Below, piece after piece: positions 20,990 to 44,054 of a DNA stretch of 64,000 nt (positions within the stretch are counted from its first letter, which is position 1; each line of letters opens with the position of its first letter). Both the position numbers and the translations under genes were made by a program. The notes beneath the pieces were generated by a model. That model was not told the origin of the DNA. It made no database searches and saw only the letters and a list, made by a program, of their open reading frames with translations. The DNA is taken from positions 1-64,000 of the forward strand of contig NZ_JAOZEW010000028.1 of the NCBI RefSeq assembly GCF_025847235.1, in the 5' to 3' direction. Source of the DNA: Flavobacterium shii. Lineage in GTDB: Bacteria; Bacteroidota; Bacteroidia; Flavobacteriales; Flavobacteriaceae.

Positions 20990-22282
20990 CTATTTGGCCA
21001 ACCAACTCTTGAGAGTTTTCATTATTTTTTCCTGATCCTGTTGTGGGAAGTTTTTGATTCTTGTGGCATGACTACCTCCGGGTAAAACCATTTTTAAAGC
21101 ATCAAGTTTAGGATTAGGTGTTGGAGAACAAGCACCCCAAGTATCGTAACCGCCATAAATAAAAAGTATTTCTGAACCTTTATTTTCGATATATTCTCTA
21201 ACTGTTTTAATGTATTTTGGATTGTAATTTATTGAAACATCTTTTGGAGCAAATCTAGAATTTGAAGTACTTTTTACCGCTGTTAATAAATCTCTTACAG
21301 GAGTAAAATCAAAACCATAGTACCCCAATTCGCTCATGTGTTGGTAATAAGATGGGAGTAAATCATAATAGCTTTTATCATTATAAAAGCTAATTCCGAC
21401 GATTTTATTCATATAGGTAAACAATTCTTTGGCAGAAGCAGTATTGGCTGGAATGTCTTCACATTTTCCTCCCCATTGCCAGAAAGAAAAAGGAAATTCC
21501 AGCGCACTATATTCTAGCGCTTCATCCATTGAAACCTCTGTAAAAGTCATTTTTTTCTCCTCGGCATATTCTTTTATTTCGTTAAGAAGAGCAGTTTTAT
21601 TTTGCAGTAATGCACGTTGAAATTCAATTATTTTTTCACGACATTCTGTAGTGCCCACAGTTGCAAGATGTTGTTGTATTCTGGGATCTTCCTGTGTATT
21701 AATTAATGGCGCTACGTAAGGAACAGCAATAGCAACATCATTTGGATATTTGGATTTGTAAATTAAGGTAGTTTCTCCGCCTTTACTAATTCCTGTTGAG
21801 ATCCATTTTCCTGTGTATAATTGTTTTAATTTGGTAACAATAGCATGATAATCAGCTATAGCCTGATCATTGGTCAAGTACTCCCAAGGAACTGGGTTCG
21901 GTCTGGATTTTCCGTAAAAACGATATTCTACAATAACCTGATTAGCATTTAATAAAGAACTTAATTCGGTTTTTGTATATCTGGCAGCATATCCTTCGGT
22001 TTCAATCACCATCGGGCTATTGTAATCGAGATGCGATAAATAAATGTAATGTTTAAATGTTCCCTTTTTAGGGTTTTTATGATCCAATGGCTCATTAAGA
22101 ACCAATTGATATGATTCTTTAAAACCTTCAAGATCTTTCATTTTGGTAATTTCTACACCAGAGAATAATTGGGTTAATTTATTCTCTAAATCGGTTTTAA
22201 TGGTAGTTTCTGTTTGAGCAAAACTCAAGTGTGAAGTAAGGGAAACAAGCAGAAGTAATAAAATGTGTTTTAACTTTCTCAT
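20990..22282 (-). CDS. Secreted tripeptidyl aminopeptidase, peptidase family S37 (PS-10)
   Basis: The 430-residue protein has a signal peptide (cleavage near FAQ, residue 23). The alpha/beta-hydrolase triad is visible: Ser166 in TGISKGGET, Asp380 in IYGGYDTWGA and His405 in LPGGSHATRI. The segment VEYRFYGKSRP before the nucleophile elbow is typical of S37, which releases tripeptides from the N-terminus of peptides. It lies at the edge of the hydroxyproline island, where it could trim peptides made by the secreted protease. It is transcribed away from the hydroxyproline genes, so co-regulation is unproven. Confidence 0.88.
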   Translation of the reverse strand: MRKLKHILLLLLVSLTSHLSFAQTETTIKTDLENKLTQLFSGVEITKMKDLEGFKESYQLVLNEPLDHKNPKKGTFKHYIYLSHLDYNSPMVIETEGYAARYTKTELSSLLNANQVIVEYRFYGKSRPNPVPWEYLTNDQAIADYHAIVTKLKQLYTGKWISTGISKGGETTLIYKSKYPNDVAIAVPYVAPLINTQEDPRIQQHLATVGTTECREKIIEFQRALLQNKTALLNEIKEYAEEKKMTFTEVSMDEALEYSALEFPFSFWQWGGKCEDIPANTASAKELFTYMNKIVGISFYNDKSYYDLLPSYYQHMSELGYYGFDFTPVRDLLTAVKSTSNSRFAPKDVSINYNPKYIKTVREYIENKGSEILFIYGGYDTWGACSPTPNPKLDALKMVLPGGSHATRIKNFPQQDQEKIMKTLKSWLAK

Positions 22283-22436
22283 TATTTTTAAATTGATTTT
22301 TTTATAAAAATATACCCTTCAAAACTAATCAATTTATACTATATTAACCTTAAGTTGCCTTATGTTAACTAGTTCTTTGTGAAATAGGATTTTGAAAAAA
22401 TAATCTGCTATTTTTAGTGAAATTTCAACTAAATAT

Positions 22437-23411
22437 ATGGAACCTATTCAACTTATTTCGGACAATTTTATTGAAGAAAATTGTGATTTTAAAAAACTAA
22501 TAGAAGGACTTCGAGAGGGATTTTCGACAGAGAAAATAGAAGTACCACTTCGGCATCATCATGATTTTTCTAATCCTGAAGAAAACAAAGATTCAACATT
22601 ATTACTAATGCCCGCATTTCAACCCGGTAAAGATTTAGGTGTAAAAATTGTTACTGTAAGTCCTAATAATGGCAAATATGATTTGCCTTCTATACAAGGA
22701 ACCTACATTTATCTGGATGCACATAAAGGGAATATCAAAGCAATTCTTGACGCAAAATCCTTAACAAGCAAAAGAACTGCAGCAACATCGGCATTGGCAA
22801 GTAGTTATCTTTCGCGCAAAGATGCTTCGTCTATGTTAATGATAGGAACTGGTGCATTGGCAATTAATTTAATACAGGCACATGCGAGGGTACGCCCCAT
22901 AAAACAAGTGTATGTGTGGGGAAGAACCATACAAAAAGCACAATTGGTTTGTGATGCATTAAGAGACTTTCCTTTTACTTGTAGAATAGTTTCAACTATC
23001 GAAGAAGTAATATCAGATGTTGCTATTATTTCTTCGGCTACATTATCACCAATTCCACTTGTATTTGGCAAATGGCTTAAAGAAGGTCAACATCTGGATT
23101 TAGTAGGTGCCTATAAAAAAGATATGCGAGAAGCTGATGATGAAGCAATCCTAAAATCAAGCGTATTCCTTGATACGTACCAAGGTGGGCTAAAAGAAAG
23201 TGGCGATATTTTAATTCCGTTAACCAATGGAATTATTACAAAAGAATCCATCAAAGCAGACTTATTTGAATTATGTAGTAATATAAAAGAAGGCAGAACA
23301 ACTGATACTGAAATTACTTTTTTTAAATCTGTGGGTCATGCCTTAGAAGACCTTGTTGCAGCCGCTTATTTTTATAAAGAGTTTAATTTAAAATCATTAA
23401 TAAATGTCTAA
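22437..23411 (+). CDS. Delta-1-pyrroline-2-carboxylate reductase (ornithine cyclodeaminase/mu-crystallin family)
   Basis: 324 residues with the mu-crystallin fold. The N-terminal part has LLLMPAFQPGKDLGVKIV and the Lys/Arg cluster LTSKRTAATSALAS. The Rossmann segment SMLMIGTGALAINLIQAHA lies at about 131-150. In the family some members are ornithine cyclodeaminases and others reduce pyrroline-2-carboxylate to L-proline. Here the next gene, overlapping by 8 nt, is a trans-3-hydroxyproline dehydratase whose product is pyrroline-2-carboxylate, so the reductase role is well supported by context. Cytoplasmic, NAD(P)H-dependent. Confidence 0.87.
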   Translation: MEPIQLISDNFIEENCDFKKLIEGLREGFSTEKIEVPLRHHHDFSNPEENKDSTLLLMPAFQPGKDLGVKIVTVSPNNGKYDLPSIQGTYIYLDAHKGNIKAILDAKSLTSKRTAATSALASSYLSRKDASSMLMIGTGALAINLIQAHARVRPIKQVYVWGRTIQKAQLVCDALRDFPFTCRIVSTIEEVISDVAIISSATLSPIPLVFGKWLKEGQHLDLVGAYKKDMREADDEAILKSSVFLDTYQGGLKESGDILIPLTNGIITKESIKADLFELCSNIKEGRTTDTEITFFKSVGHALEDLVAAAYFYKEFNLKSLINV

Positions 23412-24471
23412 AGTTTACAATAATATTTGTACTAATATAGAGTATAAAATAGCATCGGATATGCTACAAATAAAAACCATCGATATGCATACGGGAGGAG
23501 AACCGCTACGTGTTATTGTTTCGGGTTTTCCAGAACTTAAAGGAAATAGTGTGCTAGAATATCGCAGAGATATAAAGGAAAATTACGATTATTTAAGAAC
23601 GTCATTAATGTTTGAACCTCGAGGCCACGCTGATATGTATGGTTGTGTTTTGCTTCCGCCAAATGACGATGATGCCGATTTTGGTATTTTATTTATGCAC
23701 AATGAAGGATATAGTAGCATGTGTGGTCATGCGATTATTGCCATAAGTACCCTGGCTGCCAAGATGAATTGGATTACTGTAAAGGAAGGAGAAAATGCAC
23801 TTAAAATTGACGCTCCATGTGGACGAATATTTTCTTATGTTAACATTAAAAATGAAGAAGTAACAGGAGTGAGATTTCATTGTGTACCAAGCTTTGTAGT
23901 AGGCTTAGACCGTGTTGTAAATGTTTCGGGTATAGGAAACATTGTTTATGATTTGGCTTATGGCGGCGCTTTTTATGCTTATGTCGATTTAAGAAAGAAT
24001 ACAAATTTGAATTTTGGTTTAACCGAAGAAGATTATCGCACTATTATTCAGAGTGGTATAGATATAAAGCATGCTGTAATGGATCAAGATAAAGAAATTT
24101 TGCATCCATTTGAAGATGATTTAAGTTTTCTTTACGGAACAATTTTTATTGATGAGCCACAAGAAATTGCGAATCATAGCAGGAACGTTTGTATTTTTGC
24201 TGATGGCGAAGTAGATCGCTCTCCAACAGGTTCGGGCGTCTCTGGCAGAATCGCTATTGAGAATGCAAGAAATGCCATAAAACCAAATGAGTCTATTACG
24301 ATAGAAAGTATTACAGGAAGCACATTTAACGGTTCTCTTATTAAGGAAAAAGATTTTGGTAGATTTAAAGCGGTGATTCCGCAAGTCGAAGGAACTGCTT
24401 ATGTAACAGGTATAAATACTTTTCTTATAGATCTAAAAGATCCAATGAGAAATGGGTTTATTTTGAGATAG
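23404..24471 (+). CDS. trans-3-hydroxy-L-proline dehydratase (proline racemase family)
   Basis: Proline racemase fold with the pair of catalytic positions readable: Cys107 in SMCGHAI and Thr275 in DRSPTGSG. In this family Cys/Cys marks racemases and 4-hydroxyproline epimerases, while Cys/Thr marks trans-3-hydroxy-L-proline dehydratase. The product, pyrroline-2-carboxylate, is the substrate of the preceding gene. The ATG at 23404 overlaps that gene by 8 nt. An internal ATG at 23461, just before IKTIDMHTGGEPLRV, may be the functional start, since the extra 19 residues are not typical. Length with that start is 336 residues, the family norm. Confidence 0.92.
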   Translation: MSKVYNNICTNIEYKIASDMLQIKTIDMHTGGEPLRVIVSGFPELKGNSVLEYRRDIKENYDYLRTSLMFEPRGHADMYGCVLLPPNDDDADFGILFMHNEGYSSMCGHAIIAISTLAAKMNWITVKEGENALKIDAPCGRIFSYVNIKNEEVTGVRFHCVPSFVVGLDRVVNVSGIGNIVYDLAYGGAFYAYVDLRKNTNLNFGLTEEDYRTIIQSGIDIKHAVMDQDKEILHPFEDDLSFLYGTIFIDEPQEIANHSRNVCIFADGEVDRSPTGSGVSGRIAIENARNAIKPNESITIESITGSTFNGSLIKEKDFGRFKAVIPQVEGTAYVTGINTFLIDLKDPMRNGFILR

Positions 24472-24651: not shown

Positions 24652-24720
24652 GAGGAGAAACTTTGCGAGCATCGCGTAAATCTTTGTGGATTTTGTGGTT
24701 AATTTTCGGCTTTAAACCAC

Positions 24721-24985: not shown

Positions 24986-26197
24986 ATGACAATTGGAATA
25001 GGAGGCTCAACTGCAGCTATTGAGTTAGAAAAAATTAAAAACATGACTCTGAATGTAAAACCAATTCAGATAGAAGAATATCAAGATCGCATTAAAAAAG
25101 CAGTTGCTATAATGAAAGATATAAAGGTAAAAGTAGCGTATATAAATGCTGGAACGAACCTTTATTATTTTACAGGTACAAAGTGGAATCCATCTGAGAG
25201 AATGGTTGGTGCTTTATTATATGATGATGGAACGCTGGATTATATTGTTCCAAAATTTGAAGAAGGTACTTTTAAAAAATACATGCAATTAAACGGAAAA
25301 ATTAATTGTTGGGAAGAGCATGAATCTCCATATGTTTTAATGGGCGAACTATTAAAGAACAAGAATATAGTTGGAGATACGATTGCTATAGATGAGTCGG
25401 CTCCTTATTTTCTTGTAGATGGAGTGACAAAAACAAATCAATCTTATACAGTAATTAATGCTTTACCTATTACTTCGGGGTGTCGAATGCAAAAATCTCC
25501 GAATGAAATTGCTATTATTCAGCAAGCCAAAGATATTACAATGGTAGTACAACGTGCTGCTGCCAAGATATTAAGACCCGGAATTAGTGTTAATGAAGTT
25601 ACGAGTTTTATAAACAATGCGCACATAAAAGCTGGTGTTGGTTCGGGATCTTATTTTTGTATTGTTTTGTTTGCCGATGATACACAATATCCTCATGGCG
25701 TATCTATTCCACAGGATTTAAAAGAAAATGGAGCAGTTATTATCGATACAGGCTGTAGACTGGAAGGATACCTCTCGGATATTACAAGGTCTTATTCTTA
25801 TGGAACTCCATCTGAAGAATACAAAACAATTTGGAATCTTGAAAAAGCAACGCAACATGCTGCTTTTGAAGCCGCCAAAATAGGATCAACTTGTGGCTCA
25901 GTAGATGATGCTGCCAGAAAAACATTAGCGGAAGCAGGATTAAGTCCAGATTATAATTTACCGGGGTTACCACATAGAGTTGGGCATGGAACTGGTTTGG
26001 ACATTCATGAATATCCTTATTTAGTAAGAGGAAGTGAAATCGAACTTCGCGAAGGAATGGTAGTAAGTAATGAACCAATGATTTGCATTCCTGAGAAATT
26101 TGGTATTCGTCATGAAGATCATTTTTATATGACTGCCAATGGTCCAAAATGGTTTACAGAACCGATGAATAGTGTTGATAATCCTTTTGGATATTAA
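24986..26197 (+). CDS. M24-family metallopeptidase (Xaa-Pro dipeptidase-like)
   Basis: 403-residue cytoplasmic pita-bread peptidase. The five metal ligands are visible: Asp254 (IIDTGC), Asp265 (LSDITRS), His334 (VGHGTGLDIHEYP), Glu363 (NEPMI) and Glu377 (RHEDH). The N-terminal creatinase-like domain spans about 25-160. Such enzymes cleave bonds before proline or hydroxyproline, which would release free hydroxyproline from imported di- or oligopeptides. It lies between the 3-hydroxyproline pair and the protease/SusCD genes. Start alternatives are 24986 or ATG 25043. Confidence 0.88.
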   Translation: MTIGIGGSTAAIELEKIKNMTLNVKPIQIEEYQDRIKKAVAIMKDIKVKVAYINAGTNLYYFTGTKWNPSERMVGALLYDDGTLDYIVPKFEEGTFKKYMQLNGKINCWEEHESPYVLMGELLKNKNIVGDTIAIDESAPYFLVDGVTKTNQSYTVINALPITSGCRMQKSPNEIAIIQQAKDITMVVQRAAAKILRPGISVNEVTSFINNAHIKAGVGSGSYFCIVLFADDTQYPHGVSIPQDLKENGAVIIDTGCRLEGYLSDITRSYSYGTPSEEYKTIWNLEKATQHAAFEAAKIGSTCGSVDDAARKTLAEAGLSPDYNLPGLPHRVGHGTGLDIHEYPYLVRGSEIELREGMVVSNEPMICIPEKFGIRHEDHFYMTANGPKWFTEPMNSVDNPFGY

Positions 26198-26308: not shown

Positions 26309-26686
26309 TTAATAAGGTAACTTATCTGCTGGAACACCTATAAAATCGGGCTCAGGCGTGGTCTCAAACTGCACAACTGCAATATCAGTATAGCCTTGTG
26401 CCAAAGCTTTCATTATGCGATGCATACCATCCATTAAACGCCCATTTGCACATAATATAATGGGATAATCTAAGCTTGCTTCTTCCATGAGTTTCATGTG
26501 CTCGAGGATAGCTGCACAAGTTGGTATCTGGCTCGGGTCCTGGAACCAGTAAGCCTCATTTACTTCACTAATAGCACTAAGTAAAACGCGTTTAATAGGG
26601 AAGTCTCTGGATAATTCTATCAAGCGATGTACATCCCAAGCCTTTAATCCTTTTTTGCTTGGACGTAAATTATATTGTTTTCTCAT
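26309..26686 (-). CDS. ParB-like fold small protein
   Basis: 125 residues from the ATG at 26686 (the open frame reaches 26746, but that part is the terminator hairpin of the neighbour). It has the ParB/sulfiredoxin-like signature NGRLMDGMHRIMKALAQGY, with the earlier part VHRLIELSRDFPIKRVLL. No helix-turn-helix DNA-binding domain as in true ParB is present, so chromosome partition is unlikely. Stand-alone proteins of this type are poorly characterised. It lies downstream of the secreted protease gene on the same strand, but a strong hairpin separates them. Confidence 0.7.
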   Translation of the reverse strand: MRKQYNLRPSKKGLKAWDVHRLIELSRDFPIKRVLLSAISEVNEAYWFQDPSQIPTCAAILEHMKLMEEASLDYPIILCANGRLMDGMHRIMKALAQGYTDIAVVQFETTPEPDFIGVPADKLPY

Positions 26687-26720
26687 GTTTTTTTTCAAAT
26701 TAACGCTAATATAAAAACAA

Positions 26721-26781: not shown

Positions 26782-29700
26782 TTATTTCACCACTAATTTT
26801 TTGGTTTGCTTGATAGAGCCATTAGTAAATAATACATAGTAAATACCTGTTGGTAATTTTTTCACATCATAATTGAATGTATTGCGAACTGTATCTATTA
26901 AAGCTCCATTATTGTTGTAAATAGTAATTACCATTGCATCATCGGTATTGATATTTTTAAATGAGAAATTTACAATATCTGATGCCGGATTTGGGAAGAT
27001 TGTGAAAGATTTATTTTCCAAATCCACATTTGGAATTCCTAACGTAGGAGTAAGCGTGTAATCTCTATAGTTACTCCAATCACTTACTGCATTATCGTTT
27101 ATTGCTCTCATTCTTACTCTGTAATTTTTCTCAACTCCTTGCTTAACAATATATATAAAATGTACTGTTGATGTTCCAAATGTAGTCCATCCTGTTGCTT
27201 CGCTATATAACTGAATCTCATAGTTTGTAGCATTATTAATAAGGTTCCATGTTGTATAGAATCCTTCGGTATAAATTCCTGTATCTCCCTCATTAATTAT
27301 AGGAGTAGCCAAAGCCGGGTTTGGAGTCGTATCATCAACGGTTACAGTTACAATATTCGAATAATCAGAATATGTAGCGTTCATACTTGCTCTCACTTTG
27401 TAAGAATAAGTACTTCCTTTTATTAGTCCTGTATCAATATAAGAAGTTACACCTGGATCAAGAGTTGCAATAACGCTATAAGCTCCATTTCCTTCGGCTC
27501 TTTCTAGTGAAAATCCAGTTTCAATATCTGAGTTATCTTCCCATGTCAATGCTATAGTAAGAGCAGTTGAGTTTGCAGTTGCAGCTAAATTAGTAGGTTT
27601 ATCTAATGTCGCAGGAAGTGTGAAATCTCGCGGAATACTCCAGTCACTTGTTCCGAATGTATTTACAGCTCTTATTCTTACTTTATAATTTCTTTCGGTT
27701 CCTTGTTTATTTATATATAAGAAGTGAGCAGTTGATGTTCCCTGATCTGTCCATCCTGTTGTTTCATTGTATATCTGAACATCATAACTTGTTGCTTTAT
27801 TTATTAACCCCCATGTTACATAAAATCCATTGGCATAAATCCCAGTATCTCCACTATTAATTACTGGTGTAGGCAGAGTTGGAGTATTTGTTTCCTCGAT
27901 GGTTACCGATGCAATATTGGAGTAATCTGAATTTACCACATTCATAGCAGCTCTTACTTTATAAGAATAATTATTTCCCTTTATTAATCCCGTATCTGTA
28001 TAAGAAGTTGCGTTTACAGGTAGCGTTGCAATAACGCTGTAAGTTCCGTTTCCTAATGCTCTTTCTATAGAGAACCCTGTTTCATTATCGGAGTTATCTG
28101 CCCATGTTAAGGCAACCGAAAGAGCAGTTACATTTACAGTTGCAACAAGATTCCCCGGCGCATTGATGATTGGAGTCGTTATAGATTCGAATGGTTTGGT
28201 ATTATAGGCAAAATTTGTAATGGTATATCCATCTCCATTCGCAGTTACTTTAACCTTCATCCATCCATAGCAAGTTCTTCCTCGACTAGTGTATTCAAAA
28301 CCTACATAACTACTTTGATTATCCCAAACATTGTATGTTGCTGTGCGTAAATCCAATTGATTAGGATATGCACCCGGAGCTGTAAAATTACTTGAAGCGC
28401 CTATTGTAGCACCTGCGGCAACTTTAGTAATATTTCTTGTTCCCGGTTCGCAAACCAATCTTTTACCATAAGTTTCTATTTTTAGTGCATTTGCGGCATA
28501 TTGCCACGCACCGTAATCGGTATCATCTCCAACAGCTAAACTAAACCATTTCCAGTTTGATGCAGGGGAAACTTCATAGTCGGGATTATCAACATAATAG
28601 ACACCATAAGGAGCTTCAAATTCTACTTTTATTGTTTTCGAGGCATTATCAAGTGTTATTACGCCACCAGTTATAGCTGCATCTTTAAAAGTAATCACAA
28701 CCGAAGAATTGTTGGCTGGTAAATGAGAAATTGCATTTCCTGTAAAAGTAACGGCTACATTAGAGCTGTTTTGCAATGTTAAAACTGCGCTTAAACCTGT
28801 TGGAACGCCTGTAATTGTATAATCTGTACCCGCTGTTAATGTTCCTGTACTCTTGGTAAAAGTTCCATTATTGGTTGATAATGAAATTACTGCATTTGAA
28901 GTGATTGTGCCATCATTAGTATCAAATTCATATAAAGTATTAGGTGATAAAGTCACACCGGTTTTTGCTGTTACGCCTGTTGTAATGGAGGCTCCCGGCT
29001 GTGTATTATAGGCATATTCAGAGATAGTATATCCATCGCCATTTGCATCAACGGTAACTTTAAACCAACCATAACAGGTTAATCCATCAATAAGATAATC
29101 AAAACCAACGTATCCTGTTTTTCCATCCCAATTTGTATATGTTGCCGTACGTAAATCCAATTCATCTGGATATGCTCCCGGAGCTTTAAAATTACTGGTA
29201 GAACCTACAGGTGTATTTGCAGGAAGCAATGAAATATTTCTTGTTCCAGTTTCACACACTAATTTTTTAGTGTACGTTTCGATTTTTAATGCTTTGGAAG
29301 CAAATCTCCAAGCTCCGAAAGCAGGATCATCGCCTTTCTCTATTTTAAATGCTTTCCATGTAAGAGTAGCATTAGCTGTAGCATCTGGCATATCGACAAA
29401 GTAAATTCGGTATGGATCAACAAATTTAAAATCATAATACAAATCCTTACAGGTCATTCCTGAATCTCCACCTGAGAAAGCCGCTGGTAAAAATGTAATT
29501 TTTCCTTGAACATTATTAGTTCGTAGATGACTTGTGGCCTTTCCGGTTAAAGTAATAGTTAATTGAGAATTTGAATTAACAGTAAGTACAGGTATAATTC
29601 CTGCTGGAAAATTATGATTAAAGTGCGTTCCAGAAACCATTGTTCCAGATGCAAGAGCAAATGATTTAGCACCAGATAAGGTAACCATAGAAGAAGCATC

Positions 29701-30788: not shown

Positions 30789-30969
30789 TTTTTATAGCCA
30801 ATGATTTAGTTATACTATTTTATTCAGTTATGATATGAAATTATCTTTAAATTAGTATTAAGTTTATGTTATGTGTAATTATTCTTATAATTTAATAAAT
30901 TTTTATCAATACGTGAATATTGCTATCGAATAATAATAACTAATTGAATATAATCTACGAAAAGGGGAT

Positions 30970-31463: not shown

Positions 31464-31495
31464 TAAAAAAACAGGCACTCTATTGAGTACCTGTT
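31464..31495 (-). terminator. Terminator of the susC-susD transcript
   Basis: On the minus strand, aacaggtactc pairs with gagtgcctgtt (one mismatch) around a 5-nt loop and is followed by seven T, 36 bp after the susD stop. Confidence 0.85.
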
Positions 31496-36000: not shown

Positions 36001-36195
36001 AATTGAGTAAGCCCCATCAAAATCTGTTTGTGTTCCTATTTTAGATCCCTTAATCATTACACTAACACCTGGTAACGGTAATCCCGCATCATCGGTAACA
36101 ATTCCTGTGACTAATCTTTCTTGCGAAAAGATCATTTGTGTTGCAAATACAAAAAAGAGTATTGCAAATTTCCTTAAATAAACTTTAATTCTCAT
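33001..36195 (-). CDS. SusC/RagA-family TonB-linked outer-membrane transporter
   Basis: 1064 residues with a signal peptide (cleavage near FSQ, residue 25). The N-terminal carboxypeptidase-regulatory-like domain (about 28-103, VTGIVTDDAGLPLPGVSVMI) precedes the plug (about 110-250) with the family motifs LQEVVVTALG and SAASALYGSRAANGVIIVT. The large barrel ends YNFNMKVQF. It imports the substrate handed over by the SusD partner using TonB energy. The 499-bp gap to the upstream hydroxyproline operon contains that operon's terminator, so SusCD is a separate transcript. Confidence 0.95.
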   Translation of the reverse strand: MRIKVYLRKFAILFFVFATQMIFSQERLVTGIVTDDAGLPLPGVSVMIKGSKIGTQTDFDGAYSIQASANQILSFNYIGMKTQDVAASTNKVNVKMAGGSTALQEVVVTALGVKREKKSLGYATQEVKGEDLNKINNGNVANSISGKVAGVNIRRNNNIGGSTNVIIRGTSSLTQSNQALWVVDGVPLNNDNTNTDNQKSGGNTGGYDYGNAASDINPDDIETINVLKGSAASALYGSRAANGVIIVTLKKGSKSKGGLGISFNSGVTIGVADKATLPQYQNQYGSGYGDFYGTVDLGSGTHPYAATDDASWGPKFDPNLLVYNWNSFYPELPTYGKATPWTPVKKNPNSFYKTSLTYTNNIAISAANDKGDFRFGYTNYNQAQGILPNSNNRKDNFNFSASYKLTDKTKVSASANYLKANAIGMNETGYGDGGNNYLSSVRQWYNMSADFQDLEDAYNITGKNTTWSVGGPNDLSIQFHDNPYFQRNNNYNSLNRDRFFGNFALSTDVNKWLNIVGKGSIDFYQQLQEERIAVGSKRTPNTLGQYSRFDKTFREINLDLILNFKTDITENIKFYGLAGANSRRSVNSSVYAKTNGGLIVPGKYMLSNTLMPINFPDEKLATLGTNSVYANATFNFSETYFLEGSYRVDQSSTLPSKNNTYTYPSVTGTYIFSNHIKADWLSFGKLRLNYAETGNDAPFAVIQSTYDKNNNFGPDGIRFSMEDYKSNSNLKSELTKGTEAGIELKFFKNRLGLDFTYYKTNTTNQILSIETPTQTGYSRAWINGGDVQNKGFELTLTAIPFKTKDFSWETKINWASNRNEVIDLNGADRISLGSFQGIGYVAEVGKPIGQLVGRGFNYLDGEKVVKANGRYDVVAGATIGNVNPDWTGGINNVFNYKNITFNFLIDIKKGGDVYSLDQQFGNTTGIYESTVGTNHLGNPVRNSLADGGGIILPGVKADGTPNTKVVLADYDTYNSMPQQAYVYDASYVKLREVGLSYRFPSKYLENTFINSIVFAVNGSNLWIISKNLPYADPEAGSSSGNMQGFQTGVLPTSKEYNFNMKVQF

Positions 36196-36696
36196 ATACT
36201 GGTTTTATGATTAATAAGTGCAAATATTTTGCATTTATGCCTTTTTTTATGCCAATATATTATCATAAAAACAGATTATATTATCGTGTTTTAAGGATGA
36301 TACATTTACGAGGATTTTATTTATAAGTATTTATTTACCCGAATGAATTTTAGCGTTTTTTGATATAGGATTGTTAAAGAAATAAGTTTATGAAATTGGA
36401 ACGCGATGACACAAATTTATCTTTTATAATGAGGGCGGGTTTTATCTTTATCAAAGTTTTTAATTTTGATAAAAAGCCATAAATTAATTAGGGAAAATTC
36501 ATAAAAAAAGGTGAAAAATGAATTAGAAGTCTGAAAATTAAACCTAAAAGGTCAAGAAAAGACCTTACAGGATTACTGAATAAATTAGAGAAAATTTGTG
36601 TAATTTGTGGCAAAAAAAAGGTTTCTGCGTAAAAAAACAGCTACAAAAATAATTCTGTAGCTGTTAATATCTATAACCTAAAATAGGAGAGAAGGG
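36196..36696. other. Gene-free region upstream of susC
   Basis: 501 bp without an ORF. It should hold the susC promoter; a small inverted repeat tgcaaa-tat-tttgca lies at 36219-36233, 24 bp before the susC start, and might be an operator. A short aaggtc/gacctt hairpin is at about 36548-36566. The terminator of the neighbouring operon is at 36631-36665. Confidence 0.5.
36631..36665 (-). terminator. Terminator of the hydroxyproline operon
   Basis: On the minus strand, aacagctaca / tgtagctgtt forms a 10-bp stem with a 10-nt loop, followed by a run of T. It starts 32 bp after the stop of the PepP-like gene. Confidence 0.85.
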
Positions 36697-37992
36697 TTAT
36701 TTATTTGCGATAAGCCTTTCTATATCTTTAATTTCTATCGGCATTGCTTCAGAGAGGTTAATATTGCCATCATCTGTAAGCAAATAATCATTTTCTAATC
36801 GGCAGCCTATTCCTTCTTCTAGGATATAAATCCCAGGTTCGCAGGTAAGAACCATTCCTTTTTCCAGAGGACGGGAATACAATCCAAGATCGTGAACATC
36901 TAATCCTAAATGATGTGCTGTTCCATGCATGAAATACTTTTTATAAGCAGGAGAATCTGGATTTTGATTTGCGATATCTTCATTAGTAATTAATCCTAAT
37001 TTAACTAATTCTTTTTCGATTAAATTAGCCATATTTTTTTCATAATCGCTATGTGAAATTCCTGGTTTTAAGAGCTTAGATCCTTCTTTTAAACAATGTA
37101 AAACAGATGAATATACTTCGCGTTGACGAGCCGAAAAAACGCCATTTACAGGAACACATCGTGTAGTATCCGAGTTATAATTGGCATAACATACACCAAA
37201 ATCAACCAATATCATTTCGTTTTCTTTACATACGGCATCATTAGAATTGTAATGTAAAGCACAGGCATTCTTGCCTGAAGCAATAATTGGTTTAAAAGCA
37301 TGACGGCTTGCACCATTTTTAATTGCCTCATAAACAAGTTCAGCTTCTAGTTCGAACTCTTTTATATTAGGTTTAACAGCACTAAGAAGTCCTTTAAATC
37401 CTTTAATGCTAATTTCAACTGCCTTTTTGATAAGAACAATTTCTTCTTCGGATTTTATAGGTCGTAATTCACGGGTTATTTTAGCAACTCTATCATATTG
37501 ATGCAATGGGTACTTTTCTTTACACCATTGAATCATTCGATCTTGTCTGGTGGTCATTTCAGATGTAATTCTTTTTATATGTTCATTATGACCTAAATAA
37601 AAAGTATCTGCTTCAAAAGCAAATAGTTGTAATGCCTTTTCGAACTCATGAATCCACTTAACATTTTTTACTCCCGAAATAGCCGATACTTCTTCTTTGG
37701 TTAGGAAATCTCCATCCCAGAGTTTAGTATGTTCATTTACTTCTTTTACAAATAAAATTGCTCTGTTTTCTTCCTTAAAAGCATCTGGATAAAGAAGTAA
37801 AATAGTTTCATCCTGATTTATTCCTGACAAATAAAACAAATCATTATTTTGTGCAAACCCCATAACATCATCGGCATTATTGGGCATTACATCATTAGAA
37901 ACTAGAATAGCAATACTATTTGCATGCATTCTTGTCGAAAAACGTTTTCTATTTTCTAGAAATAAAGAAGAAGATATCGATTCGTATCTCAT
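36697..37992 (-). CDS. Xaa-Pro aminopeptidase P (M24B)
   Basis: 431-residue cytoplasmic peptidase that removes N-terminal residues before proline. An AMP_N domain (about 1-130) precedes the pita-bread domain. Metal ligands are Asp264 and Asp275 (VDFGVCYANYNSDTTR), His360 (MHGTAHHLGLDVHD), Glu385 (CEPGIYI) and Glu400 (CRLENDYL). It is the last gene of the hydroxyproline operon, 4 bp after the DadA-like gene. Its place in this operon suggests it feeds hydroxyproline from Xaa-Hyp peptides into the pathway. Confidence 0.92.
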   Translation of the reverse strand: MRYESISSSLFLENRKRFSTRMHANSIAILVSNDVMPNNADDVMGFAQNNDLFYLSGINQDETILLLYPDAFKEENRAILFVKEVNEHTKLWDGDFLTKEEVSAISGVKNVKWIHEFEKALQLFAFEADTFYLGHNEHIKRITSEMTTRQDRMIQWCKEKYPLHQYDRVAKITRELRPIKSEEEIVLIKKAVEISIKGFKGLLSAVKPNIKEFELEAELVYEAIKNGASRHAFKPIIASGKNACALHYNSNDAVCKENEMILVDFGVCYANYNSDTTRCVPVNGVFSARQREVYSSVLHCLKEGSKLLKPGISHSDYEKNMANLIEKELVKLGLITNEDIANQNPDSPAYKKYFMHGTAHHLGLDVHDLGLYSRPLEKGMVLTCEPGIYILEEGIGCRLENDYLLTDDGNINLSEAMPIEIKDIERLIANK

Positions 37993-37996: not shown

Positions 37997-39238
37997 TTAT
38001 AATTGAAACATTTGTGTATTAACGGTTGTTGTTTTCCCCGAAATTATTTCGGAAACAATTTTACCGGTTGCTGGTGCCAGACTTAATCCCATCATGGAAT
38101 GTCCAGTCGCCAAAGTTAAGTTTTTAATTTTTTTATCCCTAGTAATTATTGGCATTCCAGACGGTGTGCATGGTCTGAACCCGAACCATGTTTCTTCTTC
38201 TTTTGGCATTTCTATCTTTAAATCGGGATAAAAATCATTGATACTGTTTACAATTCCCTGAACTCTATTCTTATTTATTTTCGTATCGTTTGTATGCGTA
38301 ATTTCCATTGTACCACCAAAGCGAATATCATTATTCATAGGTGTAACTGCAACTTTTCCTTCACATAGAATTGACGGTATTGAAGGCTTTTGATTTCTGT
38401 CATTTAAAGTAAAGCTATAACCTTTTCCTGGTAAAATAGAAATTGCACGATTTAACTTTTTAGCAATATTTGGACTCCATGATCCTGATGCCAAAACTAC
38501 TTCATCAGTTGTAAAAGGCCCCATATCGGTAATTATTTCGGTAACAATATTATTTTTCATAACAAAATCTTCTACCAGAGTTTTATTGTGAATTGTTACA
38601 TTCAATTTGGTTAATTCCTCTTTTATAAATTGCATAAATTTTTGAGGATAAATATGCGAATCGCTTTTATAATGTACTCCGCCTGTAACATTAGTACTTG
38701 TCCCTGTTTCCAGTTTTGCTACATCTTCTTTGGAAAGAAAATCAACTTTTAATCCAAAACATTCGGCGACTTTTCCTTCATGAATAATTTCTTCGGCAGT
38801 TTTATCTGTTTTATAAAGCATTAAAAGGCCTTTATTTTCGTAGAAAAAAGAATTATTTTCTTTAACAAAATCCTGATATAATTCTTTACTTAAAAGTGAT
38901 AAATTACAAAGTGCTGGCATTGCTTTCTCAACATGCTGTTTATTGGCATGTTTATAGAATTTTAAGCCCCAATTCATTAGGTCTGCACTTAAACGGGGTT
39001 TTACATAAAACGGGCTTTGACTATCAAACATCCATTTTATTCCCTGAGCGATCATTCCCGGTTGAGCCAATGGGATAATATGTGAGGGTACAATCATTCC
39101 TGCATTCCCATAGGAACAACCATCTGTCATGTCTGATTTATCAAAAATTACAACTTCATGACCTTCTTTTGCCAAATAATAAGCAGAACATAAGCCTATG
39201 ATTCCTCCACCAATAATACTTACTTTTTTCATTATCAT
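37997..39238 (-). CDS. FAD-dependent D-amino-acid (cis-4-hydroxy-D-proline) dehydrogenase, DadA-like
   Basis: 413 residues with an N-terminal FAD-binding Rossmann motif SIIGGGIIGLCSAYYLAKEG and the DAO-family C-terminal GHSMMGLSLAPATGKIV. DadA-type enzymes oxidise D-amino acids. In hydroxyproline operons such a protein oxidises cis-4-hydroxy-D-proline to pyrroline-4-hydroxy-2-carboxylate, and here it lies between the epimerase that makes that substrate and the proline peptidase gene. It is a single-subunit type; no additional iron-sulfur subunits are next to it. ATG at 39232 is an alternative start two codons downstream. Confidence 0.87.
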   Translation of the reverse strand: MIMKKVSIIGGGIIGLCSAYYLAKEGHEVVIFDKSDMTDGCSYGNAGMIVPSHIIPLAQPGMIAQGIKWMFDSQSPFYVKPRLSADLMNWGLKFYKHANKQHVEKAMPALCNLSLLSKELYQDFVKENNSFFYENKGLLMLYKTDKTAEEIIHEGKVAECFGLKVDFLSKEDVAKLETGTSTNVTGGVHYKSDSHIYPQKFMQFIKEELTKLNVTIHNKTLVEDFVMKNNIVTEIITDMGPFTTDEVVLASGSWSPNIAKKLNRAISILPGKGYSFTLNDRNQKPSIPSILCEGKVAVTPMNNDIRFGGTMEITHTNDTKINKNRVQGIVNSINDFYPDLKIEMPKEEETWFGFRPCTPSGMPIITRDKKIKNLTLATGHSMMGLSLAPATGKIVSEIISGKTTTVNTQMFQL

Positions 39239-39309: not shown

Positions 39310-40320
39310 CTAAATAACTTGAAAACCAAATGCATATGGGTCATCATCTTGATCAATGATTATATTGTTATAACCATATACTTTTGCCCATCCCTGTATA
39401 CTTGGCACAATGGCTTTAATAGCTCCAATAGAAGTTTCTTCTTCGACTCTTCCTATAAATTTGCTACCGATAAAACTTTCGTGAATATAATCGTCTCCTT
39501 TTTTAAGCTTGCCTTTTGCATGAAGTTGAGCAATTCTAGCCGAAGTCCCTGTTCCACATGGAGAACGATCTATGGCTTTGTCTCCGTAAAAAACGGCATT
39601 TCTTCCCGAAGAGGTAGGATCTATAGGATCTCCTGTCCAAAGCATATGACTTACATCACGAATGGTATCGTTTTCGGGATGAATAAAAAGATTCGGGTAT
39701 TTTTCATTAATTCGTTTACGAACTTCCTGACTATATTGAACAATTTTTCCAGCTGTAAAGTTTTGTATTCCAGAAAATTTTGCTTGCGGATCTACAATTG
39801 CATAATAATTCCCGCCATAAGCAACATCAAAAGTAATCTCTCCCAATTCAGGACAATCTATTGTAAGTCCCTCTGCAGCAAGATAAGACTTGACATTGGT
39901 CAATCGTACCCAATCTACTTTTTTTCCAGTTTGTTGGTATTCGATCTGAACTAATCCAGCAGGAGCTTCCATCTTTATTTTTCCCGGAACCTTAGGTATA
40001 ACCAATCCTTCTTCTATAGCGATTGTAATTGTTCCAATTGTTCCGTGTCCGCACATTGGCAAACAACCAGATGTCTCGATAAATAAAATTCCAAAATCAT
40101 TATCAGGATTACTAGGCGGGTAAAGTATACTACCGCTCATCATGTCGTGACCGCGTGGCTCAAACATTAACCCTTTACGAATCCAATCATATTCTTTTAA
40201 AAAATGTTGGCGTTTTTCGCTCATGTTATTCCCTACCAAATCTGGACCACCACCGGCAACGACTCTCACTGGGTTACCGCAGGTATGTGCATCGACACAA
40301 AAAAAAGTTTTTCTTGGCAT
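39310..40320 (-). CDS. 4-hydroxyproline 2-epimerase (proline racemase family)
   Basis: 336-residue cytoplasmic enzyme converting trans-4-hydroxy-L-proline to cis-4-hydroxy-D-proline. Both catalytic cysteines are present: Cys90 in LPMCGHGTIG and Cys255 in DRSPCGTGTSAR. This distinguishes it from the Cys/Thr homologue at 23404-24471. The N-terminal VDAHTCGNPVRVV is typical of the epimerase group. It lies 3 bp after the aldehyde dehydrogenase gene and 71 bp before the DadA-like gene in the operon. Confidence 0.93.
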   Translation of the reverse strand: MPRKTFFCVDAHTCGNPVRVVAGGGPDLVGNNMSEKRQHFLKEYDWIRKGLMFEPRGHDMMSGSILYPPSNPDNDFGILFIETSGCLPMCGHGTIGTITIAIEEGLVIPKVPGKIKMEAPAGLVQIEYQQTGKKVDWVRLTNVKSYLAAEGLTIDCPELGEITFDVAYGGNYYAIVDPQAKFSGIQNFTAGKIVQYSQEVRKRINEKYPNLFIHPENDTIRDVSHMLWTGDPIDPTSSGRNAVFYGDKAIDRSPCGTGTSARIAQLHAKGKLKKGDDYIHESFIGSKFIGRVEEETSIGAIKAIVPSIQGWAKVYGYNNIIIDQDDDPYAFGFQVI

Positions 40321-40323: not shown

Positions 40324-41907
40324 CTAAATAGTTTTGTTGGTTATTATATCATTTATGGTTCTGTAAATGTTTAATGGATTATTATCCTGTAAGGCTTCAG
40401 GCAGTAATTCGTCTGGCCAATTTTGATAACTAAATGGTCTTACCCAGCGTTTAACAGCATGGATTCCAACGGCTGTAAATCTAGAATCCGACGAAGCAGG
40501 GTAGGGACCACCATGTATCATCGATGCGCAAACCTCGACTCCTGTTGGTACTCCATTAAAAATTAATCTTCCCACTCGGTTTTGTAATGCATCAACGATC
40601 ATTTTATAATTATTAAGCTCCATAGGTTCGCCAATTATAGTACCTGTTAATTGTCCGTCTAATTTATTAATAATTGTTTCCAATTCCTCATTATTATCAC
40701 ATTGAACAATGATAGAAAATGGACCAAAAACTTCATGACGCAGTGTTGGATTCTCCAAAAATGTCTCGCCATCAACAGTAAGTATTGTTTGCGAAGCATA
40801 ATTTGGGGCAATTTCTCCTTTAAATTCAGCCACAGTAGTTACTCCGTTTTGTGCTCTTATTTTTTCCCTTCCATTATTAAAATCAGCTTTTATAGAAGGG
40901 TGTAACATACATGAAGGTTGTATTTTTTCGATTTCTTCGGCTAATTGCCTAATAAATTGATTCAAATTTTCGCCTTTTATTCCTAATAATAATCCAGGAT
41001 TAGTACAAAACTGACCCGTACCTAAAGTAATAGAACCTGCATAGGCAGTTGCCCATTTTTGGCTATTTTTTTCTAGTGCTCCAGGCAAAATAACCACGGG
41101 ATTTATACTACCCATTTCGGCAAAAACAGGAATTGGTTCCGGACGTTGTGATGCTAAATCGAATAAAGCTCTACCTCCATTAATACTTCCTGTAAAACCA
41201 ACAGCTTTTACCAGAGGGTGTTTTACTAAACTGGTTCCCAGTGTAACACCACTACCAATTAAGTTTGAGAAAATACCTTCGGGCATTTTGTGTTTTTGGG
41301 CAGCTTTAATAACAGCCGAAGCAACCATTTCGCCAGTACCAATATGCATAGAATGGCTTTTTACAATTACAGTACAACCTGCAGCCAATGCCGAGACAGT
41401 ATCTCCTCCAGCCGTAGAAAAAGCAAATGGAAAATTACTTGACCCAAAAACTACAACAGGACCTAGAGGGACAAGCATTTTACGTAAATCATCTTTTGGG
41501 AGCGGTGATCTATTCGGGATAGCAGTATCGATTGTCGCCTCGAGCCAACTTCCTTCGGTAAGCATATTGGCAAATGAACGTAATTGAAAAATAGTACGTC
41601 CTCGTTCTCCTTCGGCTCTTCCTTTTGGGAAACCAGATTCTGTGCAATATACATCCAGTAATTCATCTCCAAGCGTCAAAATTTCTTCTGCAATAGTATT
41701 CAAAAAAGCAGCTTTTTGATGGTCGGAACAATTCCGATAAATTTTAAATGCATTGTTTGCCAAGGTAACTGCCTGATCAATTTCCTGGGGAGTTGCCTCT
41801 GTAAAAGTCCAAGGATTTTCAATGTTCAATTGTGGGTTTATTGTTTTGTATGTTTTGCTACCACTGGCAATAAGCTGGCTTCCTATATAATTTTTTCCTG
41901 TTATCAT
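40324..41907 (-). CDS. 2,5-dioxovalerate (alpha-ketoglutarate semialdehyde) dehydrogenase
   Basis: 527-residue aldehyde dehydrogenase with catalytic Cys301 (GTGQFCTNPG), general base Glu264 (FAEMGSINPV) and the SSNFPFAFS motif at about 156-164. The length above 500 and the phrase GPVVVFGSSNFPFAFST match the NADP-dependent ketoglutarate semialdehyde dehydrogenase group. It carries out the last step of hydroxyproline breakdown, giving 2-oxoglutarate for the TCA cycle. It follows the deaminase gene after 185 bp and precedes the epimerase by 3 bp. Confidence 0.92.
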   Translation of the reverse strand: MITGKNYIGSQLIASGSKTYKTINPQLNIENPWTFTEATPQEIDQAVTLANNAFKIYRNCSDHQKAAFLNTIAEEILTLGDELLDVYCTESGFPKGRAEGERGRTIFQLRSFANMLTEGSWLEATIDTAIPNRSPLPKDDLRKMLVPLGPVVVFGSSNFPFAFSTAGGDTVSALAAGCTVIVKSHSMHIGTGEMVASAVIKAAQKHKMPEGIFSNLIGSGVTLGTSLVKHPLVKAVGFTGSINGGRALFDLASQRPEPIPVFAEMGSINPVVILPGALEKNSQKWATAYAGSITLGTGQFCTNPGLLLGIKGENLNQFIRQLAEEIEKIQPSCMLHPSIKADFNNGREKIRAQNGVTTVAEFKGEIAPNYASQTILTVDGETFLENPTLRHEVFGPFSIIVQCDNNEELETIINKLDGQLTGTIIGEPMELNNYKMIVDALQNRVGRLIFNGVPTGVEVCASMIHGGPYPASSDSRFTAVGIHAVKRWVRPFSYQNWPDELLPEALQDNNPLNIYRTINDIITNKTI

Positions 41908-42092: not shown

Positions 42093-43013
42093 TTACAGTA
42101 CTATCGATTTATAATCCGGAAGGGTAGGTCTGGTACGTAAACCTTCGGTAATAATTCCCAAAACTCTTTCTCTTTCAGTTCCATGTAATGGTAATCTTGG
42201 CGCACGAACATATTCTGTTCCCAGTCCTGTAGCGGCTTCGGCTAATTTTATGTTTTGTACTAAAAGCGGATTAATATCTAGTTCCAATAACGGCAAGAAC
42301 CATCTGTAAATAGCCAAAGCTTCGTCTATTCTTCCTGCTTTTGCCAGTTTAAAAACAGCAACCGTTTCTGCCGGAAAAGCATCTACAAGACCAGATACCC
42401 ATCCATCAGATCCCATTAAAATACTCTCTAATGCCAATGTATCTACACCGGATAATACTTTTAAACGTCCTTGAAAACGGTTTATAATTCGAGTTACATT
42501 CGATATATCTCTGGTAGATTCTTTTACTGCCTGAATATTATCATATTTCAAGATTTCTTCAAACATATCCAATGTTACATCAATCTTGTAATCAATAGGG
42601 TTATTGTAGATCATAATAGGTAAGGAAGTACTTTTGGCAACTTCCGAGAAATAAGTAACGGTTTCATGAGGAGCTGCATTGTAACGCATAGGAGGCAATA
42701 TCATTAATCCTTTTGCTCCATTTTCTTCGGCTTTATTAGCTGCCTGAATTGCTGCCCGCGTAGTTTGCTCGGCGATATTCATTATCACAGGGACTTTTCC
42801 GTCGACTATATTAATAGTTTCTTTAATTAATTCTTTTTTTTCATCCTCAAGTAATGTGCTTGCTTCTCCAAGTGTTCCTCCTAAAATTATTCCTGAAACA
42901 CCGGCTTCTAACTGAGCCCTTACATTTACCTCAAACATATTGAAGTCTAATTTATCATCCGCAGTAAACTTTGTTGTAACTGCTGGCATAACGCCTTTCC
43001 ATTGAATACTCAT
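42093..43013 (-). CDS. 1-pyrroline-4-hydroxy-2-carboxylate deaminase (DapA/NAL superfamily)
   Basis: 306-residue TIM-barrel lyase. From the ATG at 43013 the Schiff-base Lys is Lys164 (AVKESTRD) and the conserved Tyr is Tyr136 (IMIYNNP); GGTLGEAS matches the substrate carboxylate loop. The family includes dihydrodipicolinate synthase, but the operon context (epimerase, D-hydroxyproline dehydrogenase, semialdehyde dehydrogenase) fixes the role as deamination to ketoglutarate semialdehyde. The open frame extends to 43079, but a -7 box at 43034-43041 lies inside that extension, supporting 43013 as start. Confidence 0.9.
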   Translation of the reverse strand: MSIQWKGVMPAVTTKFTADDKLDFNMFEVNVRAQLEAGVSGIILGGTLGEASTLLEDEKKELIKETINIVDGKVPVIMNIAEQTTRAAIQAANKAEENGAKGLMILPPMRYNAAPHETVTYFSEVAKSTSLPIMIYNNPIDYKIDVTLDMFEEILKYDNIQAVKESTRDISNVTRIINRFQGRLKVLSGVDTLALESILMGSDGWVSGLVDAFPAETVAVFKLAKAGRIDEALAIYRWFLPLLELDINPLLVQNIKLAEAATGLGTEYVRAPRLPLHGTERERVLGIITEGLRTRPTLPDYKSIVL

Positions 43014-43033
43014 AATTACGTTTTTAATTTTTT

Positions 43034-43041
43034 CAAAAATA
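43034..43041 (-). promoter_or_regulatory. Candidate -7 box of the hydroxyproline operon
   Basis: The complement reads TATTTTTG, a TAnnTTTG match located 20 bp before the ATG at 43013. The AraC-type regulator gene is divergent, so its binding site should lie between about 43040 and 43187. Confidence 0.5.
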
Positions 43042-43187
43042 TTTATTACGAGTAAATATATAATTAGGTAAGTTATCATAAAAAGATACTATATTATCCT
43101 TTTTAATGCTAATTTTAAAAATAATTGACAAATATGTGTTTGTTTTTTTATAAATAAAATATATTTATACCGGTTAATTTATTAATT

Positions 43188-44054
43188 ATGAAAGTATTTC
43201 CATTCAAGATTCCGAAAACCAAAGAAGATTCGTTAATTTATCAAGAAGACATAGAATTTGTTTTTTATGATAAATTACACCAACATGAAGAAATACAAAT
43301 TAGCTATATTGAGAATGGTGAAGGAACCATTTTTGTAGGCGATACTATTTCTCCATATCAAAAAGGTGATGTTGTAGTTATAGGTAGCAATCTGCCTCAT
43401 GTATTTAGGAGTGAAACTACTACCAATGAATTATCGGTTATGTTAACACTTTTTTTTACCTCTAACTCCTTTGGGAAAGACTTCTTTGGACTTTCTGCTC
43501 TAAAAGAGATTCAGCCTTTTTGGGAAAATAGTAAAAATGGTTTCATAGTTACCAACCCTTCCAATAAGGTGGTTAAGTCTTTCAAAAAAATAAAGTCGGT
43601 AAATGAATTTAATAGATTTATTCTTTTTTTAGAAATCACAAAAAAGCTTTCTCAAGAAAAAAAGATTCCGCTTTCCAGTTATATATATGACAAAAAAATA
43701 ACAGATAATGAAGGGAAGCGAATGCAAACGGTTTTTGAATATGTAATGACTAATTTTCAAAAAAATATTACTCTCGAAGAAATCGCTGCTTTATCGAATA
43801 TGACTAAAAATGCATTTTGCAAGTATTTTAAAGTCCGGACAAACAAAACTTTTTTTCAGTTCTTAATCGAAATAAGGATTGAGAGAGCGGCAAAATTATT
43901 ATCCAAATCTCAGGAACTTTCTGTTCTGGAAGTTTCAGAATTATGCGGGTTTAATAATATCTCTAATTTCAATAGAAAATTCAAGGAAATTAAAGGCGTT
44001 TCACCGTTAGTTTATCGGAAATCCCAAATGATAAAATGGAAGTCTAAAGTCTAA
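43188..44054 (+). CDS. AraC-family transcriptional regulator
   Basis: 288 residues with an N-terminal cupin sensor domain (about 20-100, HQHEEIQISYIENGEGTI and GDVVVIGSNLPHVF). The C-terminal double HTH spans about 185-285, with the typical NITLEEIAALSNMTKNAFCK and then FNNISNFNRKFKEIKGVSP. It is divergent from the hydroxyproline operon and is the obvious candidate activator, with hydroxyproline or an intermediate as ligand. This is context-based; no operator could be recognised with confidence. It converges with the methyltransferase gene (5-bp gap between stops). Confidence 0.9.
   Translation: MKVFPFKIPKTKEDSLIYQEDIEFVFYDKLHQHEEIQISYIENGEGTIFVGDTISPYQKGDVVVIGSNLPHVFRSETTTNELSVMLTLFFTSNSFGKDFFGLSALKEIQPFWENSKNGFIVTNPSNKVVKSFKKIKSVNEFNRFILFLEITKKLSQEKKIPLSSYIYDKKITDNEGKRMQTVFEYVMTNFQKNITLEEIAALSNMTKNAFCKYFKVRTNKTFFQFLIEIRIERAAKLLSKSQELSVLEVSELCGFNNISNFNRKFKEIKGVSPLVYRKSQMIKWKSKV

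Follow-up and report, generated by a model that had tools for sequence, protein, structure and literature searches.

What do genes for the breakdown of hydroxyproline (Hyp), an outer membrane importer of the SusC/SusD type (SusCD) and a set of peptidases have in common, that they should share one stretch of the genome of Flavobacterium shii? The question is raised by positions 20,990 to 44,054 of a 64,000 nucleotide stretch (the window) of contig NZ_JAOZEW010000028.1 (assembly GCF_025847235.1), a region of thirteen genes to which we refer as the island. The initial annotation took these genes to form a joint system for using hydroxyproline-rich protein. That proposal is supported by conserved gene order, by co-occurrence with the 4-hydroxyproline (4-Hyp) epimerase and by a shared upstream site, and we assign a probability of roughly 70% to the reading that the island serves the utilization of proteins containing hydroxyproline and is central to a regulon under its own AraC-family regulator (Table 1).

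Relatives provide the first part of the answer. The genus sample comprised 299 Flavobacterium genomes (genomes carry G numbers and loci L numbers below), and genome-wide counts for the epimerase, a dehydratase-like protein, SusD and the S37 peptidase refer to the matches listed in the sequence searches. The epimerase query (threshold E<=1e-30) matched in 44 genomes, 43 of them with an orthologue (84–100% identity) and one, G119, with only a dehydratase-like protein; the Hyp core with its AraC gene occurs in 43 of the 299. Loci were mapped in the window and in the epimerase surroundings of the 42 other genomes, some of which end at contig ends (G097, G172 and G185 were retained despite nearby ends, and genes may be missed there). 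The clusters of the epimerase, the semialdehyde dehydrogenase (ALDH), the deaminase (DHDPS) and AraC are each represented in 43 of 43 loci, our own included, and that of the D-hydroxyproline dehydrogenase (DAO) in 41. The other genes are less constant: the S37 peptidase is found in 28 loci, the two M24 peptidases, M24a and M24b, in 27 each, a dipeptidyl peptidase IV (DPP IV) in 25, the M43 protease in 23, SusC and SusD in 19 each, the reductase of pyrroline-2-carboxylate (P2C) in 15 and the trans-3-hydroxyproline (3-Hyp) dehydratase in 13, the last two being called the 3-Hyp pair below.

Gene order, which the initial annotation had left for comparison among related flavobacteria, is preserved: SusCD, M43, M24a and S37, together with M24b and the core, follow each other in the same order in 18 of the 43 loci, the window's among them. 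DPP IV is part of the locus in twelve of the 18, and six have the 3-Hyp pair. G004 keeps the order but has an insertion between M43 and M24a, and in G080 the 3-Hyp pair lies 21 kb off, on the other side. DPP IV stands on the downstream side of M24b in 20 loci, directly so in 18. In the islands of G128 and G230 the P2C reductase is present and no dehydratase was found beside it. With the same set and order in 17 other sampled Flavobacterium genomes, the clustering exceeds chance.

Co-occurrence gives the same picture from the side of the importer and the peptidases. The named relatives of SusD (n=20) are all from Flavobacterium, and 19 of their 20 loci are linked to a Hyp core within 21 kb. At 70% identity or more, SusD is present in 19 of the 299 genomes, every one of which has the epimerase, and 30 of the 31 genomes with an S37 orthologue (E<=2e-175) have it too. 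The dehydratase-like protein, found with the epimerase query, occurs in 19 of 43 epimerase genomes vs 1 of 256 others (Fisher 3e-17, relatedness ignored). Such Fisher values take no account of shared descent and overstate independence, because the genomes are related.

A shared site carries the second part of the argument. The spacers between DHDPS and AraC and those between SusC and M24b or DPP IV align on one conserved word, and the resulting site is a direct repeat, GRTAATATA followed after 12 bases by a GRTAATATA-like copy, with a period of 21 bp and pointing mostly towards the operon. AraC-family targets typically consist of two direct half-sites of this form; here such a pair, about 21 bp apart and near a promoter, is present, and binding is predicted. 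The susCD site is the single exact match in the 5.58-Mb genome of F. shii. Across the sample the exact double site has 22 copies in 21 of the 299 genomes, that is in 21 of 43 with the epimerase vs 0 of 256 without it (Fisher 1e-20, relatedness ignored), and the reversed pattern used as control has 2 copies. Sixteen of the 22 precede susC at 59–60 bases; one of these, in G306, stands before an open reading frame (ORF c82) between susC and M24b that is probably the split 5' part of susC. Three others precede an alternative susC, one the susC of a second module in G311, one lies in a spacer between a GH36 (melibiase) gene and a SusC-like gene in G239, and one precedes a P2C-reductase relative in G254.

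Scoring by weight matrix extends this beyond exact copies. The full matrix (34 columns) was built from 73 distinct sites of relatives with the window left out, and a second one, the DHDPS-only matrix, was trained on 29 distinct Hyp-operon sites of relatives so as to avoid circularity; upstream regions with a gap of less than 40 bases or with N were omitted from its test. First-order random sequence yields 0.08 sites of at least 12 per 64 kb, with a 95th percentile of maxima of 15.6. In the window the sites of susCD and of the Hyp operon score highest with the full matrix and that between S37 and the P2C reductase third; the next-best score, 7.5, falls within the DAO gene. The DHDPS-only matrix detects 18 of 19 susC and 11 of 11 alternative susC upstream regions vs 10 of 216 background ORFs, as well as 7 of 12 before S9 peptidase genes and 13 of 23 before M24a, where the spacer is in many genomes the one that also serves S37. 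It detects none before ALDH (0/33), DAO (0/29), GH127 (0/6) or GH36 (0/5). S37 promoters of 16 relatives carry the site, and 14 of 15 P2C-reductase upstream regions reach at least 13.0 with the full matrix (G209 has -10.9), many of them sharing the S37 spacer that was used in training. A single half-site, by comparison, has 5 matches in the window vs 2.69 expected, which is not significant, as 11 of 100 shuffles reach that number. The shared direct repeat favours the view that susCD and the Hyp genes are controlled jointly, and the genes of the island are probably switched on together by one regulator.

Sites also accompany several genes of the system that lie elsewhere. Relocated pairs of P2C reductase and dehydratase were examined in five genomes (G006, G224, G132, G182, G239), and in each a site of 19–24 stands ahead of the reductase; the pair of G080 has one of 15.8, and G119 one of 14. 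G254 has the dehydratase place without a reductase and without a site there, its exact site standing before another reductase relative. An unlinked S37-M24a-M43 group in G126 has a site of 26, an unlinked SusCD relative in G079 one of 16, and L148, a locus from another family of the order that combines S37, the 3-Hyp pair, M24b, core and AraC without SusCD, one of 22 at DHDPS. In G311 the SusD gene belongs to a second module far from the core of that genome, with three sites (37, 28 and 28). This module (L177) consists of AraC, DHDPS, M24b, DPP IV, SusCD, M43, M24a and S37, without epimerase, ALDH or DAO. G298, the S37 carrier without epimerase, has S37, M24a and M24b side by side, and no core, AraC, SusCD or site of at least 12 was seen within the 20 kb examined.

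Within the F. shii genome itself, the best 30 of 135 mismatch-tolerant matches were scored for off-island sites. Among them the sole off-island match of at least 20 scores 21.5 (11.2 with the DHDPS-only matrix) and is intergenic. It precedes M43b, a second secreted M43 protease with PKD domains and a type IX secretion system (T9SS) tail, which is followed by a DPP IV gene. The encoded DPP IV is 73–84% identical to the one beside M24b in 20 relatives, so that this unlinked pair with its site explains why the island in the window has no DPP IV. An M43b orthologue was found in 3 of 42 genomes searched, all three from close relatives, and the site precedes it in each (26.0, 26.0, 27.7). Off-island matches L190, L192, L201 and L208 (10.9–13.2) were dropped, as they lie inside open frames, and L203 (12.5), located between the genes for an outer-membrane protein and a histidine kinase, was dropped as probably due to chance.

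Several observations weigh against our reading. Twenty-four of the 43 loci are without these SusCD genes in the region examined, and one SusD locus, L042 of F. poyangense, is without a core within the 21 kb examined. Among 38 loci from outside the genus the core is frequently present, whereas relatives of S37, M43 and SusD occur in one each and those of M24b in five. Two of the outside loci with core and AraC, L147 and L138, have no site of at least 12, nor have the unlinked SusCD relatives of G180. The site between S37 and the P2C reductase reaches a score within the random range (13.0) and -2.1 with the DHDPS-only matrix; as random maxima reach 15.6, its location counts for it no less than its score does. 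The repeat before M43 scores 1.4 (full) and -0.3 (DHDPS-only), below any threshold; its conservation over 18 genomes is suggestive only. M24a in the window scores -13.0. The DHDPS-only matrix recovers just 17 of 26 S37, 5 of 13 P2C-reductase and 2 of 24 M43 upstream regions. Finally, with up to 3 mismatches the F. shii genome has 135 matches vs 128 for the reversed control, and these relaxed matches are therefore noise.

The gene assignments on which all this builds hold up to different degrees. All twelve structural genes and the AraC gene named by the initial annotation were found in place and belong to the expected families. The epimerase and the P2C reductase pass curated NCBIfam cut-offs; the dehydratase (best model NF045511, 364 bits, cut-off 540), the D-Hyp dehydrogenase, the deaminase and the semialdehyde dehydrogenase all score below theirs, and their predicted functions rest on family, residues or motif, and gene context. 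The residue pairs in Table 1 are of use here, since Cys/Cys vs Cys/Thr is what we take to separate epimerase from trans-3-Hyp dehydratase activity. The longest ORF of DHDPS begins at 43079, a start that we reject because the regulatory site extends into it; translation probably starts at 43013, Met23 of that ORF.

Among the peptidases, S37 gave weak matches in the PDB to DPP2, an endo-Pro peptidase and a Pro-X carboxypeptidase, and may be of post-proline type by distant kinship (S28, DPP2). M24a is closest to solved prolidases, and no signal peptide was seen in it. In M43 the HExxHxxxxxH motif starts at residue 231, and mirolysin and ulilysin are relatives. We considered M43 as a recognisable collagen binder and dropped this idea: the model of residues 330–870 (mean predicted local distance difference test 84, predicted TM-score 0.54; alignment of 15 sequences, the window plus 14 of 21 relatives' pieces, the M43 fragment of G261 being left out) gave only weak beta-sandwich matches, the best Foldseek E value being 4.2e-05 at TM 0.15. 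Family searches found no carbohydrate-active enzyme or glycosidase and no M9 peptidase among the thirteen island genes. A search for M9 collagenase (PF01752) gave 0 of 299 genomes, but also 0 of 14 control genomes, and is hence uninformative.

Judged by strand and spacing, the island is made up of several transcription units rather than one operon. The Hyp operon on the minus strand would comprise DHDPS, ALDH, epimerase, DAO and M24b (gaps of 185, 3, 71 and 4 bases); susC-susD (gap of 11 bases), M43 and S37 are the other minus-strand units, and the P2C reductase with the dehydratase (the ORFs share 8 overlapping bases), M24a and AraC those of the plus strand. M43 is probably separate from susCD, given the terminator-like hairpin and its T run behind susD. 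Between M24a and M43 lies an orphan ORF of 145 aa (window 26309–26746) with a relative in four other genomes and no Pfam match.

Table 1. Genes, predicted regulatory sites and other features of the island and of the off-island pair (window coordinates unless a locus is named).
Feature	Position	Strand	Remarks
S37 serine peptidase with signal peptide	20990..22282	-	PF05576 204 bits; GxSxGG Ser166
Predicted AraC-type site, S37/P2C-reductase divergent promoter	22336..22369	-	GTTAACATA-N12-GTTAATATA; full matrix 13.0
Delta1-pyrroline-2-carboxylate (P2C) reductase, OCD family	22437..23411	+	NF004793 (PRK06141, P2C/Pip2C reductase model) 372.5 bits, cut-off 322
trans-3-hydroxy-L-proline dehydratase, racemase family	23404..24471	+	Cys107/Thr275; PDB 6r76, 7qpo
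M24a, prolidase-like peptidase	24986..26197	+	PF00557; PDB 4r60/5cik proline dipeptidase 368 bits
Secreted M43 metalloprotease, two fn3, T9SS sorting tail	26782..30753	-	PF05572 228 bits, PF00041, PF18962
Divergent 21-bp repeat before M43	30812..30845	-	GATAATTTC-N12-AATAAAATA; positions conserved in 18-genome alignment
Terminator-like hairpin with T run, 3' of susD	31470..31495	-	sequence
SusD-like_2 lipoprotein	31532..32989	-	PF12771 437.7 bits
SusC/RagA-family TonB-linked outer-membrane protein	33001..36195	-	TIGR04056 587 bits, cut-off 368
Predicted AraC-type site of susCD	36252..36285	-	GATAATATA-N12-GATAATATA; full matrix 33.7, DHDPS-only 23.0
M24b, aminopeptidase P-like	36697..37992	-	PF00557, PF05195
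FAD-dependent D-hydroxyproline dehydrogenase, DAO family	37997..39238	-	PF01266 217.6 bits; function by context
4-hydroxyproline epimerase	39310..40320	-	NF010578 589 bits, cut-off 376; Cys90/Cys255
alpha-ketoglutaric semialdehyde dehydrogenase, ALDH family	40324..41907	-	PF00171; PDB 3v4c, 1eyy; function by context
Pyrroline-4-hydroxy-2-carboxylate deaminase, DHDPS family	42093..43013	-	PF00701 196 bits; start revised from 43079
Predicted AraC-type site of Hyp operon	43065..43098	-	full matrix 27.9, DHDPS-only 34.6; aligned in relatives
AraC-family regulator, cupin-type N-terminal domain	43188..44054	+	PF12833, PF07883
M43b-DPP IV off-island pair	G000:C8, L219:4296-10633		site upstream

Put together, these genes suggest a route from protein to central metabolism. 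The secreted M43 proteases, one in the island and one outside it, would cut the protein, S37 and the off-island DPP IV would trim peptides behind proline, and SusCD may carry the peptides across the outer membrane. In the cytoplasm the two M24 enzymes would free proline and Hyp. 4-Hyp would then pass through epimerase, D-Hyp dehydrogenase, deaminase and semialdehyde dehydrogenase to alpha-ketoglutarate, and 3-Hyp through dehydratase and reductase to proline. An inner-membrane uptake step is missing from this scheme, because none of the thirteen island genes encodes a peptide or Hyp transporter of that membrane. AraC would bind the site and activate, the signal may be Hyp or an intermediate, and the substrate could be an animal or a plant Hyp protein.

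The core and its regulator are not tied to one set of partners. Seven genomes combine this core and AraC with GH127, an S9 peptidase and an amino-acid permease; DUF885 is also present in six of the seven, and GH43, GH42 and DUF5695 in several. Five other genomes combine them with S9, DUF885, the permease, an M61 peptidase and another SusCD. In a tree of the core proteins (43 rows) the alternative front ends fall into separate clades, with one change for GH127, one for M24b and six for SusC. We lean slightly towards a genus-wide AraC Hyp regulon with a fixed core and swappable front ends, an animal-type one directed at collagen or gelatin in one set of clades (secreted M43, SusCD, S37, M24, DPP IV) and one directed at plant hydroxyproline-rich glycoproteins in another (GH127, S9, other SusCD), which would have been recruited, also at unlinked positions, by gaining the 21-bp repeat. 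L057 (Hyp core with GH127) and L087 (Hyp core with M61 and another SusCD) are candidate loci for plant hydroxyproline-rich glycoproteins. Outside the genus, GH127 relatives (248–319 bits) lie near the core in three loci (L149, L153, L164).

Of the alternatives, the one that fares best is a special case of our own reading, in which the substrate in the window, too, is a plant hydroxyproline-rich glycoprotein (extensin or arabinogalactan protein) rather than animal collagen, and the regulon a system for plant cell-wall protein whose glycosidases the clade of F. shii has lost or moved. 3-Hyp is known from collagens rather than from extensins, and the F. shii genome has the 3-Hyp pair together with two secreted M43 proteases; the absence of a glycosidase among the island genes speaks against plant material as well, as does the finding that no site lies within 250 bases before GH127 (0/6) or GH36 (0/5). 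On the other hand, the sister clade has core and AraC beside GH127, GH43, GH42, S9 and mostly DUF885, with the site before S9 and susC, and according to the accessible text of two papers, Bifidobacterium enzymes of the GH127/GH121 kind are part of a system for the arabinosides of plant hydroxyproline-rich glycoproteins (PMC7263609, PMC10850190). Because of that system, a plant-directed version likely exists in the GH127 clade, while the substrate of the version in the window could be either. A GH36 gene adjoining the island in five genomes, with half-sites in the spacer, also favours a plant target. We regard this case as possible, though doubtful, for the window. The GH36 gene stands there with a SusC-like gene (L123:1660-7961), their spacer has two or three half-sites, 440–700 bases from GH36, and that of G239 contains the exact double site.

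A more general scavenging of proline-rich peptides, with the peptidases and SusCD serving any proline-rich protein and the Hyp genes forming one branch of the regulon, would fit the peptidases, as M24, S37 and DPP IV are post-proline enzymes that do not need Hyp, and the 3-Hyp branch itself ends in proline. SusD, S37 and the exact double site are, however, nearly confined to genomes with the epimerase, and we consider this explanation unlikely. That Hyp core, susCD and peptidases are separate units, adjacent without a joint function, is highly improbable, as core and front ends share the site, in several cases even when unlinked, and co-occur almost exclusively, even though front ends vary by clade and a core or module may stand alone (G298, L042, G126).

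The surroundings of the island appear to belong to other systems. A TonB siderophore-type receptor gene (window 18700–20856) adjoins S37, as it does in G004. The flanks include ORFs of SusC and SusD size (3811–8413, judged by size and position only), and over 3811–8413, 13960–15312 and 45926–53039 a GH1 beta-glucosidase, a Reg_prop/Y_Y_Y regulator and a GH16 T9SS protein are among the genes. These sugar loci seem to have no connection with the Hyp regulon.

Polysaccharide utilization loci of Bacteroidota combine SusC/SusD, a secreted T9SS hydrolase, adjacent catabolic genes and a local regulator, and the island has all of these, but with peptidases and amino-acid catabolism in place of carbohydrate-active enzymes. 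SusCD loci are mostly read as sugar systems, and where a SusCD pair lies in another context its substrate is difficult to predict; in the island, the amino acid that is finally catabolized indicates the likely substrate class, and the site lists candidate members of the regulon. A peptide-importing SusCD system is known in RagAB of Porphyromonas gingivalis. In the accessible text on F. psychrophilum, a collagenase, SusCD and Dcp2 form a co-expressed cluster (PMC9723704), and both systems resemble the island, by description, in having a SusCD proposed as oligopeptide importer near proteases; the main text of that paper is without the word hydroxyproline, unlike the island with its link to Hyp. 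A superfamily survey (PMC4113996) likewise covers, in the part available, the epimerase, T3 dehydratase and OCD-family reductase that the island has, and places peptidases in T3 dehydratase neighbourhoods of Bacilli; the strings Bacteroidetes, Flavobacteri, TonB and collagen do not appear anywhere in that paper's main text. We found no open-access paper in which Hyp catabolism is connected with SusCD or TonB systems, subscription papers being outside the scope of the search. The combined, swappable system thus looks new for this group, though its single parts are known, and such swapping of front ends around a constant core and regulator would clearly exemplify how nutrient systems evolve by modules.

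The closest precedent, going by the accessible part of its description, is the HypR regulon of Streptomyces coelicolor (PMC6608401), which is induced by L-Hyp and in which one repressor controls both Hyp catabolism and the unlinked gene of a putative secreted collagenase. On our reading, both systems have one regulator, a Hyp operon (epimerase, D-Hyp dehydrogenase, deaminase) and an unlinked secreted protease. In Streptomyces the repressor, HypR, belongs to the GntR family and has a different site, and the collagenase is of family M9, whereas the island has an AraC-family regulator, M43, outer-membrane import and several front ends; its 21-bp direct repeat of GRTAATATA is unlike the published HypR motif, and Table 2 of that paper has no SusCD, S37, M24, DPP IV or 3-Hyp enzyme. 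If our reading is correct, the means to feed on collagen-like or plant cell-wall proteins are encoded in many Flavobacterium, and the system is a counterpart to the HypR regulon of Streptomyces that was assembled separately.

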